Of a stretch of DNA of 11,312 nt, positions 335-9,087 are shown piece after piece. A program made the translations under genes and the position numbers. The stretch lies in NCBI GenBank assembly GCA_022013615.1, contig JAKLQB010000562.1:1-11312 (forward strand), read 5' to 3'. Source of the stretch: Desulfobacterales bacterium. Its GTDB lineage: Bacteria; Desulfobacterota; DSM-4660; Desulfatiglandales; Desulfatiglandaceae. The notes beneath the pieces are model-generated. The model did no database searches. It worked only from the letters and a program-made list of their open reading frames with translations, and was not told the DNA's origin. The first letter of the stretch is position 1, and each line of letters begins with the position of its first letter.

Positions 335-781
335 TCACACAATATGCGTTATTGCAATATTTCCCCATTTATCATTGAGGTATTCTGCCACTAATCGGCG
401 ATGGCAGTGATCGGGCTTATCCTCACTGCACAATAAGCATCCTCTTTCAAATATATCTTTTGAAAGCTTTTTTTCAATTCGCCTGCTTGACAACAAAGCC
501 ATAAAATTCTTTTCATACAAAGCCCAGTCACCTTTATTTTTCTTATACTCATCCAAAATTTCTTTCGCAGGAGCAAGCTCCGGGATATGCATATAATCAA
601 TATCGCATATGGTTTTTAGAAAGTAACTAAGATCGTCCTTTTTTGCAAAGCCTGCAAGCTGTGAGACATTATTCAGGCGTACATCTATAATGCGTTTCAC
701 GCCCCTTTCACATAGCTGTTCAAAAAAGTATTCAGCAGTTTTCTTGGTAAAGCCTATAGTAAAAATTCTGGTTTTTTTCAT
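335..781 (-). CDS. DUF488 family protein (first paralogue)
   Basis: The product has 148 residues and carries the DUF488 signature: an N-terminal strand with TIGFT (8-12), DVR at 33-35, and the C-terminal block LLCSEDKPDHCHRRL (116-130) with C118, C126, H127 and R128. Conserved Cys and His residues in this block suggest a catalytic or metal-binding site, but no reaction is established for the family to my knowledge. The ATG at 781 is preceded by a purine-rich AGGATGGG stretch. It begins 15 bases after the stop of the second DUF488 gene and is the last gene of the recQ operon. It is not a recent duplicate of its neighbour: it has TIGFT where the other has TIGHST, and DVRLNN where the other has DVRSQP. 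The family call is firm; the function is unknown. Confidence 0.85.
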   Translation of the reverse strand: MKKTRIFTIGFTKKTAEYFFEQLCERGVKRIIDVRLNNVSQLAGFAKKDDLSYFLKTICDIDYMHIPELAPAKEILDEYKKNKGDWALYEKNFMALLSSRRIEKKLSKDIFERGCLLCSEDKPDHCHRRLVAEYLNDKWGNIAITHIV

Positions 782-796
782 GCAATTCCCATCCTA

Positions 797-1399
797 TCAT
801 CTCTTTCCATGTCCATTATCAAGATCTTCCGTATGGGCTATTTTCTCGCCCTGAATATCGTATGCACTCTGGATAATTTCTTCCGTGTTTTTGAATAAAT
901 TAGTCTCCTGTATTTTCAATATGCGCATCAACCTCTTGATCGAATCATCGTTCTCCTCAATAGAGCCATCTTCCAGAATATGCCTTATCCAAATTCCATT
1001 TTTGCGAAGGTGCCTGCATACCAGGATAGTCCTGTGACATGTAACAGGGTCCTTTTCTGCGCACATCAGAGCAATGCGATAAGACTCCATCCCCTTTCTT
1101 AATCTCTGGATTCCTTGGTGAAAGATGTCTGTCTTTGTCAGGCAGTCATACTGGACCTTGCCATCCACATAACAGGTTGGATCATCGCTCCGGGGCCCCA
1201 GTTCTTTTCCCAAAAACACGTATGTAATACCATGTTTTTCTAATTCTTTTTTTATTGTTTCACGGTTAAACTGTGGGTTGAACTTGCTATATGGCTGCGA
1301 ACGAACGTCACAGACTGCTGTTATCGCATGCATTGACAGAAGCTCAAAAAATTTATCAAATGGGTGTGTTGAATGACCAATTGTGTACACTTCATGCAT
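797..1399 (-). CDS. DUF488 family protein (second paralogue)
   Basis: The product has 200 residues from the preferred ATG at 1399. The frame stays open up to a TTG at 1441, but only the ATG has a good Shine-Dalgarno (AAGGA, 7-base spacing), and DUF488 proteins normally begin just before the TIGHST strand, as here (6-11). DVRSQPYS (31-38) and the hallmark block ALMCAEKDPVTCHRTIL (110-126) with C113, C121, H122 and R123 follow. About 60 residues after the domain form a charged, helical-looking tail with no recognised motif. The gene lies 63 bases downstream of the RecQ gene and 15 bases upstream of the other DUF488 gene, so all three are probably co-transcribed. The biochemical role is unknown; the link to a helicase suggests nucleic-acid metabolism. 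Confidence 0.88.
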   Translation of the reverse strand: MHEVYTIGHSTHPFDKFFELLSMHAITAVCDVRSQPYSKFNPQFNRETIKKELEKHGITYVFLGKELGPRSDDPTCYVDGKVQYDCLTKTDIFHQGIQRLRKGMESYRIALMCAEKDPVTCHRTILVCRHLRKNGIWIRHILEDGSIEENDDSIKRLMRILKIQETNLFKNTEEIIQSAYDIQGEKIAHTEDLDNGHGKR

Positions 1400-1406
1400 T
1401 CTTTGT

Positions 1407-1411
1407 TCCTT
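1407..1411 (-). promoter_or_regulatory. Ribosome binding site choosing the ATG of the second DUF488 gene
   Basis: AAGGA on the minus strand sits seven bases before the ATG at 1399-1397. The alternative upstream TTG at 1441 has no comparable site, and the 14 residues it would add have no family equivalent. Confidence 0.65.
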
Positions 1412-1462
1412 TTCAAGAGACTTCTTTGACAGGATTGCCAATATTCAACCGACAATCACCAA

Positions 1463-4330
1463 TCAGACGATGATTGCAGCCACAAGTTTGTAGCAGTAAC
1501 CTTCATAGGGCTCCCCAATACTCACGGTTAAATACACATTTTCTTCTGTTATTGTGTATTCCCCAATGTCTTTATTGAAGTATTTTTTTTCAATCAGGGG
1601 ATCAGTAACGGATAACCAGTATTTGACGCCGTTCAAATTGAATTTTGCGCGTATTTTCTTGAGCAGGTTTGGTCCTTCATCAACAGTAATGCGTAGGTTA
1701 CGTGGTTTTACAAGAACCAGTGAGGATAACACTGTTTCCTCAGCAATATTCAGGGGTATCCTGTCGTTCAGGCCATTATGGCTGTGATGCCCATTTATCC
1801 ATAAAGACTGAACATCATCACATAGCCCCGGCAAGTCTGATATGGAGAGTTTTCCTTTCTTAACCCATTGGCGATCATCTATGATATAGTTTTCCGACTG
1901 ATAAGAATGCGGGCTATGTCTTGTTAATGGGAAAGATATAATATCCAGCAACTCTGGAATTCCTCCATCCCGAAAACTGATATCTCTAAGGGAGAGTTCG
2001 CCGGTTTCCATCTGACCCACCGGTCTGATCCACTCACCAGTTTGTCCCTCAGCGGCCTCCTTGCCGGCGATGCAACAACCTGAATATTTCCGTGAATTGG
2101 CCAGGCATATTATTTGCTTATAGAAATATTTTCCCTTGGAATCAGCAACATCTATTCCCATAGCCAAATTGTATTTACACAAATAATAAAGGCGAAGAAT
2201 TTTTAGTTCGTCATAATTGACTTCCCCGTGAAATGCATCATAAACTGGTTTTAACAGGTCAGGGCCAAGCATTTCAAATGTTTTAGTGACAAGGGTTTTC
2301 TGGTCAGGTGGTATTGTTGAAAGCGCTAATAATTCATCTGATCTGACGGCATTCCCTTCCTGCAGATACTTGAATAAGTGATCTATAACCGTACCCTGCT
2401 TAATGTTATAATCGGTCATTATTTTGTTAACAGAATGCCCGGAATTGTATGCTTCTCCGATGACAATATATCTTTTCTTGCGGATAGAAGCTCTGGCGCT
2501 TGTCTCTGCTTTCCTTTTTCTCTTTGGTCTTTCTTCAATCTGATGCGCATGGCAATATTCTTTAATGATACTCAAGAAGTGAAAGCCATATTTCTCGCAT
2601 TTCACTGTCCCGACACCATGAATGTCCAACAAAGTGTCCCCGGTTTGTGGAAAAAATGTGGCCATTTCCACCAGCGTCTTGTCTGAAAAAATCACGAAAG
2701 GCGGCACATCAGCCTTGTCCGCTAAGGCCTTCCTCTTTTTCCGAAGTGCATCAAACAAATCTCTCTCATAGCCCGGATCGGTTTGCTTTTCAGTGGTTTC
2801 GTCCTCCTGTTCATATTCGAGCATCCCAAGAACGGTTTCTTTCCCTTTTAAAACATCCCATGCCTTGTCCGTGAGTTTTAAGCTCCCGAATTCCATATCC
2901 TGAACAATGAGACCTTTCTGGGTAAACTGTCGGGACAGATGGAACCACTGTCTTTTTGAATATTCCCGCCCAATTCCGTAAGTGGACAGGTGTTGATGTT
3001 CAAAACTCAATACCTTCTTTGCCTTTGAGCTGCGAAGCACATCAATAATATGGCCTGCGCCAAACATCTCCCCGGTTCGTTTTAGGCAGGACAGAAATTT
3101 TTGAGCAGGAATGGTTATATCCACGAGATCTCTTTTCTCTGCCTTGCAATTGTCACACATGTTACATTCTGAAGCCGGATATGTTTCTCCGAAATAGTTC
3201 AGAAGAGGGATACGGCGACACACTTCGGTTTCAACCAAACGCAACAGGGCGTTTAGATGAATATTCGCCACCCGTTGCTCGTGGTTCTCTTTCTTATTGA
3301 TAAAATATTTAATTTTCTGGATATCTCCATAACTGAACAACAATAGACAATCGGACCGGAGACCATCGCGTCCGGCCCGTCCGATTTCCTGATAATAACC
3401 CTCGATATTTTGCGGTAGATCATAGTGAACCACAAAGCGGACGTCTGGTTTATCAATCCCCATGCCAAAGGCAATAGTTGCTACAATGATTTGTGCATCA
3501 TCCCTGATGAAGCGTTCCTGGTTTTCATTGCGTTCCCTATCCGTCAGCCCTGCATGATAGGGCCGCACGGAAAAGCCTTCATTTCTTAAGACCTCATAAA
3601 GATCATCTACCTGCCTGCGGGAAAAACAGTAGATAATCCCGGATTGATTCGGGAATTTTTTAATGAATTTAATGGTTTGATCAAGGGGATTGTATTTAGT
3701 AGCGATCTGGATAAAGAGGTTTTTTCTGTCAAAACTGTCAATAAATTCATTGGAGGCGTCAAATCCAAGGTTAGCCTTAATATCCTCCCTTACCCTTGGC
3801 GTTGCCGTGGCTGTAAGTGCAATACAGGCTGCCTTTGGAAAACGATCTCTCACTTGAACCAGTTGCCGATATTCCGGCCGGAAATCGTGCCCCCACTGGG
3901 AAATGCAGTGGGCTTCGTCAATGGTAAGGCAATCCACCTCTACGGAAGAGAGCATCTCTAACATGTTTGCCTTTAACAATGCCTCTGGAGCCAAATAGAG
4001 TAATTTGACCGCTCCCCGCTTTATCCGATCCACATTGCGCCGGTATTCCCCAAGAGACAGGGAGCTGTTCAAGAATACCGCGGAAACGCCCATTTGCACC
4101 AATTGTTCCACCTGATCCTTCATTAACGAGATCAGAGGAGAAACAACAATGGTTAGGCCCTCAAAGATGAGGGCCGGAAGTTGATAGCAGAGGGATTTCC
4201 CGCCCCCGGTTGGCATAATGACCAATGTATCATTCTTCTGCAGAACATTTTCGATGATATCCGCCTGAAGAGGTCTGAACTCATCATAACCGAATACATG
4301 TTTAAGAATGCGTTCTGCCTTATCCATCAT
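1463..4330 (-). CDS. RecQ-family ATP-dependent DNA helicase with HTH and dual-OB-like C-terminal extension
   Basis: The product has 955 residues from the preferred ATG at 4330. It is a 3'-5' superfamily 2 DNA helicase. Motif 0 FRPLQ is at 18-22, Walker A PTGGGKS at 40-46, DEAH at 138-141 followed by the aromatic-rich loop CISQWGHDFRP, TATATP near 173-178, and motif VI QEIGRAGRDG at 314-323. The zinc-binding cysteines C371, C389, C392 and C395, a winged-helix RQC region (about 403-503) and an HRDC domain (about 520-598) follow. Residues 613-718 look like the helix-turn-helix domain found after HRDC in long RecQ proteins. The last 220 residues (735-955) resemble the dual-OB module (IICLANSRKYSGCC, GEWIRPVG). 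E. coli RecQ is about 610 residues, so a third of this protein is extra. It leads an operon with two DUF488 genes. The frame extends to a TTG at 4381, but AGGA seven bases before ATG 4330 favours the shorter form. It is too divergent in architecture to call the housekeeping recQ. Confidence 0.93.
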   Translation of the reverse strand: MMDKAERILKHVFGYDEFRPLQADIIENVLQKNDTLVIMPTGGGKSLCYQLPALIFEGLTIVVSPLISLMKDQVEQLVQMGVSAVFLNSSLSLGEYRRNVDRIKRGAVKLLYLAPEALLKANMLEMLSSVEVDCLTIDEAHCISQWGHDFRPEYRQLVQVRDRFPKAACIALTATATPRVREDIKANLGFDASNEFIDSFDRKNLFIQIATKYNPLDQTIKFIKKFPNQSGIIYCFSRRQVDDLYEVLRNEGFSVRPYHAGLTDRERNENQERFIRDDAQIIVATIAFGMGIDKPDVRFVVHYDLPQNIEGYYQEIGRAGRDGLRSDCLLLFSYGDIQKIKYFINKKENHEQRVANIHLNALLRLVETEVCRRIPLLNYFGETYPASECNMCDNCKAEKRDLVDITIPAQKFLSCLKRTGEMFGAGHIIDVLRSSKAKKVLSFEHQHLSTYGIGREYSKRQWFHLSRQFTQKGLIVQDMEFGSLKLTDKAWDVLKGKETVLGMLEYEQEDETTEKQTDPGYERDLFDALRKKRKALADKADVPPFVIFSDKTLVEMATFFPQTGDTLLDIHGVGTVKCEKYGFHFLSIIKEYCHAHQIEERPKRKRKAETSARASIRKKRYIVIGEAYNSGHSVNKIMTDYNIKQGTVIDHLFKYLQEGNAVRSDELLALSTIPPDQKTLVTKTFEMLGPDLLKPVYDAFHGEVNYDELKILRLYYLCKYNLAMGIDVADSKGKYFYKQIICLANSRKYSGCCIAGKEAAEGQTGEWIRPVGQMETGELSLRDISFRDGGIPELLDIISFPLTRHSPHSYQSENYIIDDRQWVKKGKLSISDLPGLCDDVQSLWINGHHSHNGLNDRIPLNIAEETVLSSLVLVKPRNLRITVDEGPNLLKKIRAKFNLNGVKYWLSVTDPLIEKKYFNKDIGEYTITEENVYLTVSIGEPYEGYCYKLVAAIIV

Positions 4331-4373: not shown

Positions 4374-4542
4374 ATTCCCAAGGATCATCGCGGATTAGTG
4401 TGAAAACCAGGTTAGGGACGTAGCACAAAAGCATTGTAGGGTCGGGTTTTATACCCGACCGGGGTTGCGGTGTCATATAAAATGCCACCCTACATGATGC
4501 GAGCAAAGGCTGTCACTCTAATCCGTGATGAGGCATTCCCAA
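4374..4542. repeat. MITE-like inverted-repeat element with 8-bp direct repeats, upstream of recQ
   Basis: The core spans 4382-4534 (153 bp). Terminal inverted repeats lie at 4382-4403 and 4513-4534 and match at 18 of 22 positions, including CGGATTAG in both. The direct repeat ATTCCCAA borders each end (4374-4381 and 4535-4542). Nested stems lie inside: TGTAGGGT/ACCCTACA (4435-4442 with 4487-4494), GTCGGGT-TTTAT-ACCCGAC (4441-4459), and an imperfect GGTGTCAT/ATGCCACC hairpin. There is no open reading frame of note. The element lies 44-52 bases upstream of the RecQ ATG, so any recQ promoter is either inside it or in the short gap. Confidence 0.65.
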
Positions 4543-7253: not shown

Positions 7254-7826
7254 TCAGTAGAACATCCTTCCCGTAATAACCCGCCCCTTATCGTTAAGAA
7301 AAATCCCCTCCATTTCCAGCAAGGCTTGTTTCATTCTGAGACCTCCCTGGTAGCCTCCAAGGGTTCGATCGGAGCGGATAGCCCTGTGACATGGAATCAA
7401 TAATGGGAATGGATTGTTGGCCAAAGCTGTACCAACGGCACGAGCTCCAGACGGCTTGTCAACTTGTTTGGCAATGCGCTGGTAAGTGCTCACATGCCCA
7501 CGAGGGATCCCATGTTCGGCACGTAAGACTTTCTGCTGAAATTCAGAGCAGATATCCAGTCGAGCGATTTCAAGAGAGAAGCTAATATCGTCGCCAGCGA
7601 GGAAAGCTTCAATCTGACTGGCAACTACGTCAATTTCAGTGCAAGAAGATTCTATGGACCTTGGAAAAGCGGCCTTAACCAACTGTGTGGATGAAGCCTC
7701 TGAATTTGAAAGAAGAATCCTGAAAATTTTCGGAAATCCCTCATAGACATACCAGAGTATGGCAACTGGCCCGAAGGTGCTTGAGAAGAAACAGACAGAT
7801 GATTGTTGCGTATATGTCTTCTTCAT
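7254..7826 (-). CDS. ogt: Methylated-DNA--[protein]-cysteine S-methyltransferase (O6-alkylguanine-DNA alkyltransferase)
   Basis: The product has 190 residues. This suicide enzyme moves alkyl groups from O6-alkylguanine in DNA to its own cysteine. The acceptor is C146 in the invariant LIPCHRAI block (143-150). The preceding helix-turn-helix is typical of the family: FQQKVL (96-101), IPRGHVSTYQRIAKQVDKP (107-125) and RAVGTALANNP (129-139), with R129 in the position of the arginine that flips the damaged base. The N-terminal half (1-90) is weakly conserved, as usual in this family, and there is no Ada-type zinc domain. The ATG at 7826 has AGGGG six bases upstream. It ends 17 bases before the MopB gene, whose ribosome site lies in that gap, so both are probably co-transcribed, an unexpected pairing of DNA repair with a redox enzyme. 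Confidence 0.93.
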   Translation of the reverse strand: MKKTYTQQSSVCFFSSTFGPVAILWYVYEGFPKIFRILLSNSEASSTQLVKAAFPRSIESSCTEIDVVASQIEAFLAGDDISFSLEIARLDICSEFQQKVLRAEHGIPRGHVSTYQRIAKQVDKPSGARAVGTALANNPFPLLIPCHRAIRSDRTLGGYQGGLRMKQALLEMEGIFLNDKGRVITGRMFY

Positions 7827-7873: not shown

Positions 7874-8203
7874 TCAGTACTGATAGTCTGCTCTCACAGG
7901 ACTGAACATATCGAACGCTCTGGCAGGGGTATCACCTGTCCTGGCACCGTGCTCCACACCGCCAGGAATGATGTAAGTATCCCCTGGCTTAAGCCAGCGT
8001 GTTTCCCCGTTGATGGTCATCTCCAACTCACCGGAAATAACAGCACCGGCTTGCTCGTGAGGATGACTATGAGCGGGGACAACAACGTTGGCAGCCAAAT
8101 CGACGATGGATAACAGCATCTTGTTGCCCCAAAAGGTGCGAATGTGCACACCAGGGACGGTTTCTTTCGCTTCCCTGTTTTCTAAATCGCAAAAATATTG
8201 CAC
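7874..8203 (-). CDS. Small cupin-domain protein
   Basis: The product has 109 residues from the preferred GTG at 8203 and is a single-domain cupin (Cupin_2 type). Motif 1 is PAHSHPHEQAGAVISGEL (43-60), with H45, H47 or H49 and E50 as metal ligands. Motif 2 is PGDTYIIPGGVEHGAR (73-88) with H85 as the last ligand. The function could be enzymatic or regulatory through a bound metal; cupins are too diverse to say more. The frame reaches a TTG at 8215, but GGAGG lies five bases before the GTG and within the region the longer form would translate, so GTG is chosen. It ends 47 bases before the alkyltransferase gene and may lead that operon. A MITE-like element lies about 55 bases upstream. Confidence 0.87.
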   Translation of the reverse strand: MQYFCDLENREAKETVPGVHIRTFWGNKMLLSIVDLAANVVVPAHSHPHEQAGAVISGELEMTINGETRWLKPGDTYIIPGGVEHGARTGDTPARAFDMFSPVRADYQY

Positions 8204-8257: not shown

Positions 8258-8415
8258 CTATGAGGCTGTCCGAGAATGGCTATTTTCCCTCCCGCTAATA
8301 GCGGGACGTCAGGCTCAAATTATAATCCTCGAAATACTTCAATGTATTCCTGCGGTTATAATTTTCGCCTTCCTTGATCTTGGAAAAAATTTCTCATTCT
8401 CAGACAGCCTCCTAG
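8258..8415. repeat. MITE-like inverted-repeat element with nested hairpins
   Basis: Ends 8258-8278 and 8395-8415 are inverted repeats matching at 19 of 21 positions; the shared core is GAGGCTGTC-x-GAGAATG. Inside are a perfect CCCGCT-AAT-AGCGGG hairpin (8291-8305) and an imperfect palindrome of two 21-base arms (8317-8337 and 8344-8364, 16 of 21 paired) around a 6-base loop. The outermost CTAT/CTAG bases could be a 4-bp target duplication of CTAG with one change, but this is weak. The rest of the gap 8204-8580 holds nothing recognisable beyond a short CGCG-CTT-CGCG hairpin near 8463-8473. The element is not coding. Confidence 0.6.
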
Positions 8416-8580
8416 TGAGGAACATGCTTCAGCGTGTCTGTCTCTACCCCCGTTGATAGGCCGCGCTTCGCGCAATCCAGCTAATCACCTTGCTTGTTCA
8501 GCCAATTTTTCTCGTATTCTTGAGGAGTTAAAACATAACGAATGAAGTGGCCTGCCTCTATGGTGCGTCTCAACCTTCCG

Positions 8581-9087
8581 TTATTCAAAATGGAACTGTA
8601 CGGTGATCTTGCATTCTTTCCCGTTAAACTTGAGACAGCGACTGAGATCTGGAGTTCTGGTATATCTGAGCTCCATGGCGTCAAACCATCCCTCGATCCT
8701 CTCAAAGATACCACACTCGTAATCAGGAATGAGTCCTATCTTCTTCATACCTCTATGGGCAAAGCAATCTAAGAACTGAAAAACTTGAGAGTCATTACCA
8801 GGATAATCGATATGAACGGAGACGAAGTCTGGAAAGAAAACCTGTTTTCCTAACTCGAACAATTCCTGGTATTCCTCAATACCTGTAGGGGGCGGTGCTT
8901 CGACCATTTTCATCAAACGGCCGCACTCAATCTGCCCCAACTTTCTGCACACCCGAAGATTCATGGGGCTTGCATCAGCCATCCCAAACTTCGCCGCCAC
9001 CTCCCCATACCAAAGGGCGTCGTGTGTCATCCAGTTTTTGATCAGGATGTCTCTTAGCTGGTCTTTATTTATTTTACCTGATACCAC
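8581..9087 (-). CDS. Conserved hypothetical protein resembling DUF6125 / ATC-hydrolase-like proteins
   Basis: The product has 168 residues. The N-terminal WMTHDALWYGEVAAKFGM (19-36) and the C-terminal block YECGIFERIEGWFDAMEL (123-140), followed by C151 and C159, resemble small anaerobe proteins annotated as DUF6125 or as related to L-2-amino-thiazoline-4-carboxylate hydrolase; this assignment is from memory of motif style and is tentative. C108, C125, C151 and C159 could form a metal or redox site. There is no signal peptide or membrane segment. The start is a GTG at 9087 with AAGG six bases upstream; no better ATG exists before the conserved N-terminal block. The gene stands alone, 345 bases from the zinc-ribbon gene upstream. 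Real gene likely; function unknown. Confidence 0.7.
   Translation of the reverse strand: MVSGKINKDQLRDILIKNWMTHDALWYGEVAAKFGMADASPMNLRVCRKLGQIECGRLMKMVEAPPPTGIEEYQELFELGKQVFFPDFVSVHIDYPGNDSQVFQFLDCFAHRGMKKIGLIPDYECGIFERIEGWFDAMELRYTRTPDLSRCLKFNGKECKITVQFHFE

Follow-up and report, generated by a model that had tools for sequence, protein, structure and literature searches.

The window analysed here is a stretch of 11,312 nucleotides from a Desulfobacterales bacterium (contig JAKLQB010000562.1, assembly GCA_022013615.1). On its reverse strand it has an operon of three genes, which code for a RecQ helicase ending in a dual oligonucleotide/oligosaccharide-binding (OB) domain, DuOB, and for two DUF488 proteins, which we call DUF488-B and DUF488-C. 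This operon is a RecQ-fused variant of PDC-M45. All three products match PDC-M45 models of PADLOC, therefore the module is one already catalogued as a candidate defence system: the DuOB part scores 241 bits as PDC-M45A, DUF488-B 281 bits as PDC-M45B and DUF488-C 238 bits as PDC-M45C. The three components (A is DuOB, B and C are DUF488 proteins) are all present, adjacent and on one strand. The peculiarity of the window is that a RecQ helicase carries component A as its C-terminal domain: the best M45A model covers residues 754–971 only.

The genes of the operon

A preliminary description of the window had proposed three open reading frames on the same strand, which our analysis confirms: with ATG starts supported by homologues (4330, 1399 and 781) the gaps between them are 63 and 15 bp. 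The helicase gene (1463..4330, 955 aa from the ATG at 4330) has its RecQ core at 2555..4315, with the Pfam domains DEAD, Helicase_C, Zn-binding, RQC and HRDC; TIGR01389 matches residues 23–609 of the 972-aa reading. The score with this RecQ equivalog is 758 bits, above its cut-off of 640, and the helicase motifs are complete: Walker A, DEAH, LTATA, QxxGRxGRD and the zinc cysteines. A housekeeping RecQ (TIGR01389) has the same complete set of domains and motifs, but it lacks the additional tail and the pair of DUF488 genes in the operon. The tail, previously described as a non-standard C-terminal half, consists of HTH_40 (2195..2452, PF14493, 47.7 bits), next to the RecQ core, and of the Pfam domain DuOB (1472..2119, PF22557, 209 bits with a cut-off of 27). 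PADLOC models of DpdF, from the Dpd system, also give high scores on the helicase part. We have rejected this identity: the NCBIfam DpdF equivalog gives 207 bits with a cut-off of 550, and the protein is a RecQ.

DUF488-B (797..1399) has 200 aa from the ATG at 1399, a start taken from homologues, and DUF488-C (335..781) has 148 aa. Their scores with PF04343 (DUF488, cut-off 22 bits) are 87 and 83.5 bits; DUF488-C also matches PF22751 (active DUF488-N3) with 41.9 bits. Blocks containing CHR had been noticed in both proteins, and indeed both of them carry T-I-G, D-x-R and C-x-E-x5-C-H-R. The latter block is coded at 1031–1063 in DUF488-B and at 398–430 in DUF488-C, where it corresponds to C118-x-E120-x5-C126-H127-R128. 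Its first C, its E and the C-H-R are invariant across 78 aligned homologues. The block is found in 26 of 26 DUF488-B and in 25 of 26 DUF488-C sequences; the single miss is truncated by the end of its contig.

The three genes are maintained by purifying selection, since the dN/dS values against L001, a contig from a Desulfobacteraceae metagenome-assembled genome (MAG) with 95–96% DNA identity, are 0.21 for DUF488-C, 0.22 for DUF488-B and 0.22 for the helicase. The operon is a real, intact and maintained set of genes. Scans for tRNA and Rfam families gave no match.

The family of DUF488 proteins is very large: each of the 8000 candidates which we scored matched it. Among the titles listed in a search for literature naming DUF488 none concerns its function, a similar search for DuOB returned nothing relevant, and in the literature searched there is no paper naming both RecQ and DUF488. 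The name PDC-M45 did not appear in the literature text searched. DUF488 and formaldehyde are both mentioned in PMC8765078; their joint mention looked incidental.

A constant unit of DuOB and DUF488-C

The preliminary description considered the RecQ helicase and the two DUF488 proteins as a unit. We have looked for DuOB in four samples: 297 genomes from the phylum of the nearest genome, 299 genomes from the phylum of a Clostridia MAG (G371), viral contigs and plasmids. Only three of the 44 places with DuOB sit in a protein fused to RecQ. DUF488 is mostly found apart from such helicases, and the claim as it was worded fails. The partner which does accompany DuOB is DUF488-C: at 11 of 12 places (11 genomes) in the first sample, at 8 of 11 (10 genomes) in the second and at 8 of 9 on viral contigs. 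DuOB is present in 23 plasmid records, and the 12 which were opened all have DUF488-C. A search for DuOB in phage records gave no match. The constant unit is DuOB with DUF488-C, usually joined by another enzyme from the clade to which DUF488-C belongs; RecQ is an add-on.

DUF488-C is missing at five places with DuOB: two of them (G338 and G643) are near contig starts, another two, both in G654, are partial matches, and the fifth is a viral locus with a truncated end. One place in each phylum sample scores below the Pfam cut-off (G174 among the 297 genomes, G654:C23 among the 299). The 12 plasmids include L149, in which DuOB is read in two pieces, and L148, in which DuOB and DUF488-C are set 4 kb apart by several genes, a transposase gene among them. 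In the latter, the Klebsiella pneumoniae plasmid pH205 (132–5647), a shortened DuOB and a DUF488-C in two pieces flank the genes for an ISEcp1 transposase and for a beta-lactamase of the CMY type; a DUF4326 gene comes after them.

The second enzyme varies. It may be DUF488-B, a DUF488-N3a protein (L156, L161) or an mSLOG-DUF4326 protein. Five such third genes were tested: in four (L134, L135, L144, L145) both mSLOG and DUF4326 are above their cut-offs, and in the fifth (L141) DUF4326 is present with mSLOG just below its cut-off. Annotated DUF4326 proteins occupy the same place on plasmids of Klebsiella, Citrobacter, Leclercia and Acinetobacter.

It is highly improbable that two unrelated genes have come to lie beside a housekeeping RecQ by accident. 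DUF488-C is also found apart, as such an accident would allow: there are 17 strong places (at least 188 bits) in 16 of the 297 genomes, 11 of them with a DuOB neighbour and six with no DuOB match. However, the counts given above speak for a true linkage of DuOB with DUF488-C, and so does the fusion with RecQ in two different orders, described below. A comparison of the three proteins had been suggested in order to detect their joint transfer. The divergence of DuOB, DUF488-B and DUF488-C does co-vary across 26 loci (Mantel r 0.66–0.75, none of 2000 permutations as high), but shared descent alone could yield the same result.

Predicted structures and possible activity

The AlphaFold2 (AF2) model of DuOB has a pLDDT of 95.4, and its Foldseek list is headed by OB proteins: HIN-200, Teb1 and LEF-3. 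Its fold is predicted to be of the OB type. The model of DUF488-C has a pLDDT of 88.3. In the rhodanese-phosphatase superfamily a conserved cysteine ends a core strand and an arginine begins the next helix. The model of DUF488-C has this placement: C118 ends the strand 114–118 and R128 is at the start of the helix 127–139. We take these positions to be those of the Cys and Arg in enzymes of the protein tyrosine phosphatase (PTP) type. Among the matches to the predicted structure are phosphatases of the PTP type as well as an RNA 5'-phosphatase. RapZ is not among the 50 matches listed, which excludes nothing. Sequence searches against solved structures gave nothing useful.

Burroughs and Aravind reportedly defined the DUF488 clade in 2023 and predicted for it a role in DNA-end processing in conflict systems. 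The Pfam families DUF488-N3a, DUF488-N3i, DUF4326 and mSLOG match either the operon proteins or those which stand in for them elsewhere. With moderate confidence, we consider that the RecQ-fused module of DuOB and DUF488 processes DNA ends or lesions through a cysteine-based phosphate-transfer site, in defence, in repair or in both. RecQ would open the DNA at an end, a fork or a lesion, while HTH_40 and DuOB, the latter with two putative OB barrels, would hold the exposed strand. The DUF488 pair, putative members of a clade of cysteine-based phosphatase or rhodanese-like proteins, might then act on a phosphate or sugar-phosphate at the DNA end. Foreign or blocked ends would in this way be readied for degradation or repair, or would be marked. 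We infer the substrate, the chemistry and the defence role, as well as any physical complex which the operon proteins might form.

A different activity has to be considered: the DUF488 and DUF4326 enzymes could act on a free nucleotide or on a signal of the ADP-ribose type, with DuOB-RecQ as the DNA sensor which triggers them. The replacement of the second enzyme by mSLOG-DUF4326 would agree with such signalling. In PMC9503650, DUF4326, a frequent fusion partner of SLOG domains in viruses, is proposed to process the phosphates of ADP-ribose products, which also favours it. Nevertheless the window has DUF488-B instead of mSLOG, and the steady partner is an OB domain of the DNA-binding type, so that we find signalling quite unlikely.

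Fusion with RecQ

Three of the 12 DuOB places among the 297 genomes are fused to RecQ; no fusion was seen in the 11 places of the 299 genomes, in the nine viral ones or in the 12 on plasmids. Fusion was judged in these samples by the length of the open frame, and a few places cut by contig ends could not be judged. Fusions are commoner in the family of the window itself (G003, G004, G026, G036, G037 and G040). In the window the order is RecQ-HTH_40-DuOB; RecQ also precedes DuOB in L001, L002, L083, L094, L095, L097, L101 and L103. Another lineage has the opposite order, DuOB-RecQ (L085, L088). We have also found a plain RecQ without DuOB, followed by a piece of DUF488-B of 50 aa and an intact DUF488-C (G023; L080, 9625–11997), and take this to be the operon in a state of partial decay.

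We searched 26 chosen genomes for RQC and found it in 14. In all eight genomes with a clear, uncut RecQ-DuOB fusion (G003, G004, G026, G036, G037, G040, G223 and G242) there is no RQC match outside the fused gene. This result is only suggestive, because the genomes were partly chosen for the presence of the module and the eight are 71–99% complete. In G131, where the fused gene runs off the end of its contig, the one RQC match is found at the start of a different contig.

The fused protein may therefore do the ordinary work of a cellular RecQ. This favours an alternative in which the operon serves DNA repair and not defence: RecQ, DuOB and DUF488 would clear chemically blocked or protein-linked ends of the host DNA, for example those with aldehyde adducts. 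We think such a purely repair role rather unlikely. Against it, the module is patchy, it was lost in the nearest relative available, and it is found on plasmids, on viral contigs and in BREX and CRISPR loci.

Neighbouring defence genes

It had been guessed that the operon is a mobile module for repair or for defence against phages. In favour of this guess we have its identity with a catalogued candidate, its presence on plasmids and viral contigs and the defence systems which are sometimes found beside it. BREX genes are in or beside the module in L086 and L092. In L165 (1767–10293) genes for a Wadjet-type JetA, DUF4194, an SMC-like protein and JetD, which we read as Wadjet JetABCD, are directly upstream (about 140 bp) of DUF488-B, DUF488-C and DuOB on the same strand. 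Other loci have RadC and genes similar to type I restriction-modification (RM) ones (L078), HsdM (L093), HEPN_Swt1-DUF499 (L074), type III CRISPR (L120), a NotI RM system (L117) and CBASS together with a helix-turn-helix (HTH)/ImmA pair and an integrase (L118).

We compared the neighbours of 17 loci with a control. There were 18 loci chosen, 11 of the 12 from the 297 genomes and 7 of the 11 from the 299; one of them, L088, has no neighbour. The places in G338, G643 and G424 and both places in G654 are cut, partial or short and were omitted. The 119 neighbour proteins matched 153 PADLOC families (E 1e-15), the 119 control proteins, taken from 20 random regions, 49; these totals are not gene counts, as the models overlap. 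Among the families listed (25 per list) those of the control come largely from one CRISPR locus. We have also counted genes within 20 kb of the module in genomes which carry it, with rounded sizes and with gene pieces merged by eye. PglZ is that close in 2 of 15 cases (expected 0.09, P about 0.004; 26 genomes), and ribosomal S4 in none of 27 (expected 0.17). For N6-methylase, whose 129 rows come down to about 110 cases when merged by eye, 2 are that close, with about 0.7 expected (P about 0.15).

The module is enriched beside defence genes to a modest degree, and many of its loci have ordinary neighbours. The guess stands only in part.

An HTH regulator, a metallopeptidase of the ImmA/IrrE type or both of them precede DuOB, DUF488-B and DUF488-C in L136 (4152–8839), L140 (7597–9723) and L118 (5963–9429). 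Both genes are annotated in L118 and the peptidase is found in L136; they would fit a control by DNA damage, in favour of the repair alternative. A serine recombinase is downstream of the module in L136, and the integrase of L118 is nearby.

DUF488-C without DuOB

DUF488-C is also found alone on plasmids. DUF488-C matches 132 plasmid records, of which we opened seven for this question, eight with that of Rhizobium. A relative which is 56–59% identical adjoins uvrA or uvrB amid formaldehyde genes in Escherichia coli, Enterobacter, Kosakonia and Aeromonas; these examples are one shared cassette. The same context is found in Comamonas and in Acinetobacter pittii, and in Shinella the lone gene is near formaldehyde genes. 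The genes with an adjoining uvrA or uvrB are at 8998–9429 in L119, at 6998–7429 in L194, L195 and L196, at 8007–8438 in L197 and at 7995–8435 in L199. No DuOB or DUF488-B is annotated next to these lone relatives, and a profile check of L119 and L122 was likewise negative.

The context of uvrA/uvrB and formaldehyde genes points to DNA adducts as the substrate, and it is a further argument for a repair role. On the other hand, the DUF488-C of Rhizobium (Q54, 51% identical) has no such context. DUF488 is tied to RecQ through DuOB, with fusions in two orders, and separately to these cassettes, so that DNA ends and adducts become concrete candidate substrates. These ties also suggest a possible overlap between the repair of host DNA and a module catalogued as a defence candidate. 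A more specific proposal, based on the context of the cassettes, is doubtful: where a DNA end is blocked by an aldehyde or protein adduct, or by an end modification of a phage, DUF488-C would take off or transfer the group, and the RecQ-DuOB operon would serve such ends as a substitute RecQ pathway. The plasmid formaldehyde-uvrA/uvrB cassettes and defence islands would then share this chemistry.

History of the site

The operon is found between the same flanks as in the window in G003, whose contig C514 corresponds to L001. L001 has 395 bp more between the helicase and DUF488-B, and a different stretch upstream. A close relative, G001, has the same flanks and has lost the operon, with a stump of DUF488-C left: it keeps a match of 168 bp to positions 318–485 of the window, which correspond to roughly the final 150 bp of this gene, followed by a junction of 162 bp and by the Fe-S/Mo genes.

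The operon had been described as more AT-rich than the nearby redox genes, and its GC content is 42.6%, below the 53.5% of the Fe-S/Mo genes. This is not distinctive in the window, because five of the six other stretches measured have 44–48% GC; the cupin stretch has 51.8%. We have rejected the idea that the low GC indicates a recent arrival: other genes of the window are similar, and L001 keeps the operon between the same flanks.

The repeats noticed at both ends of the operon are real, but they do not show mobility. The one at 224–323 is a dispersed repeat of 100 bp with inverted ends and target duplications of 9 bp (215–223 and 324–332); L001 and G001 lack it at this site. The other, of about 154 bp, is upstream of the helicase (4382..4535). 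There are at least 23 copies of 4382–4535 in G001 and G003, and at least 21 of 223–323 in G001–G003. They are not operon ends, because they are scattered through related genomes. The idea that they bound the operon as ends of a mobile element was rejected for the same reason; moreover the repeat with a readable empty site (224–323) is younger than the operon. Together with a third one at 8258–8416 they are three different short repeats with inverted ends, with many copies in related genomes, similar to miniature inverted-repeat transposable elements. Past the Fe-S/Mo genes, and upstream of the operon by a few kb, there is a gene of the repair type (7254–7826), with the DNA-binding domain of 6-O-methylguanine DNA methyltransferase.

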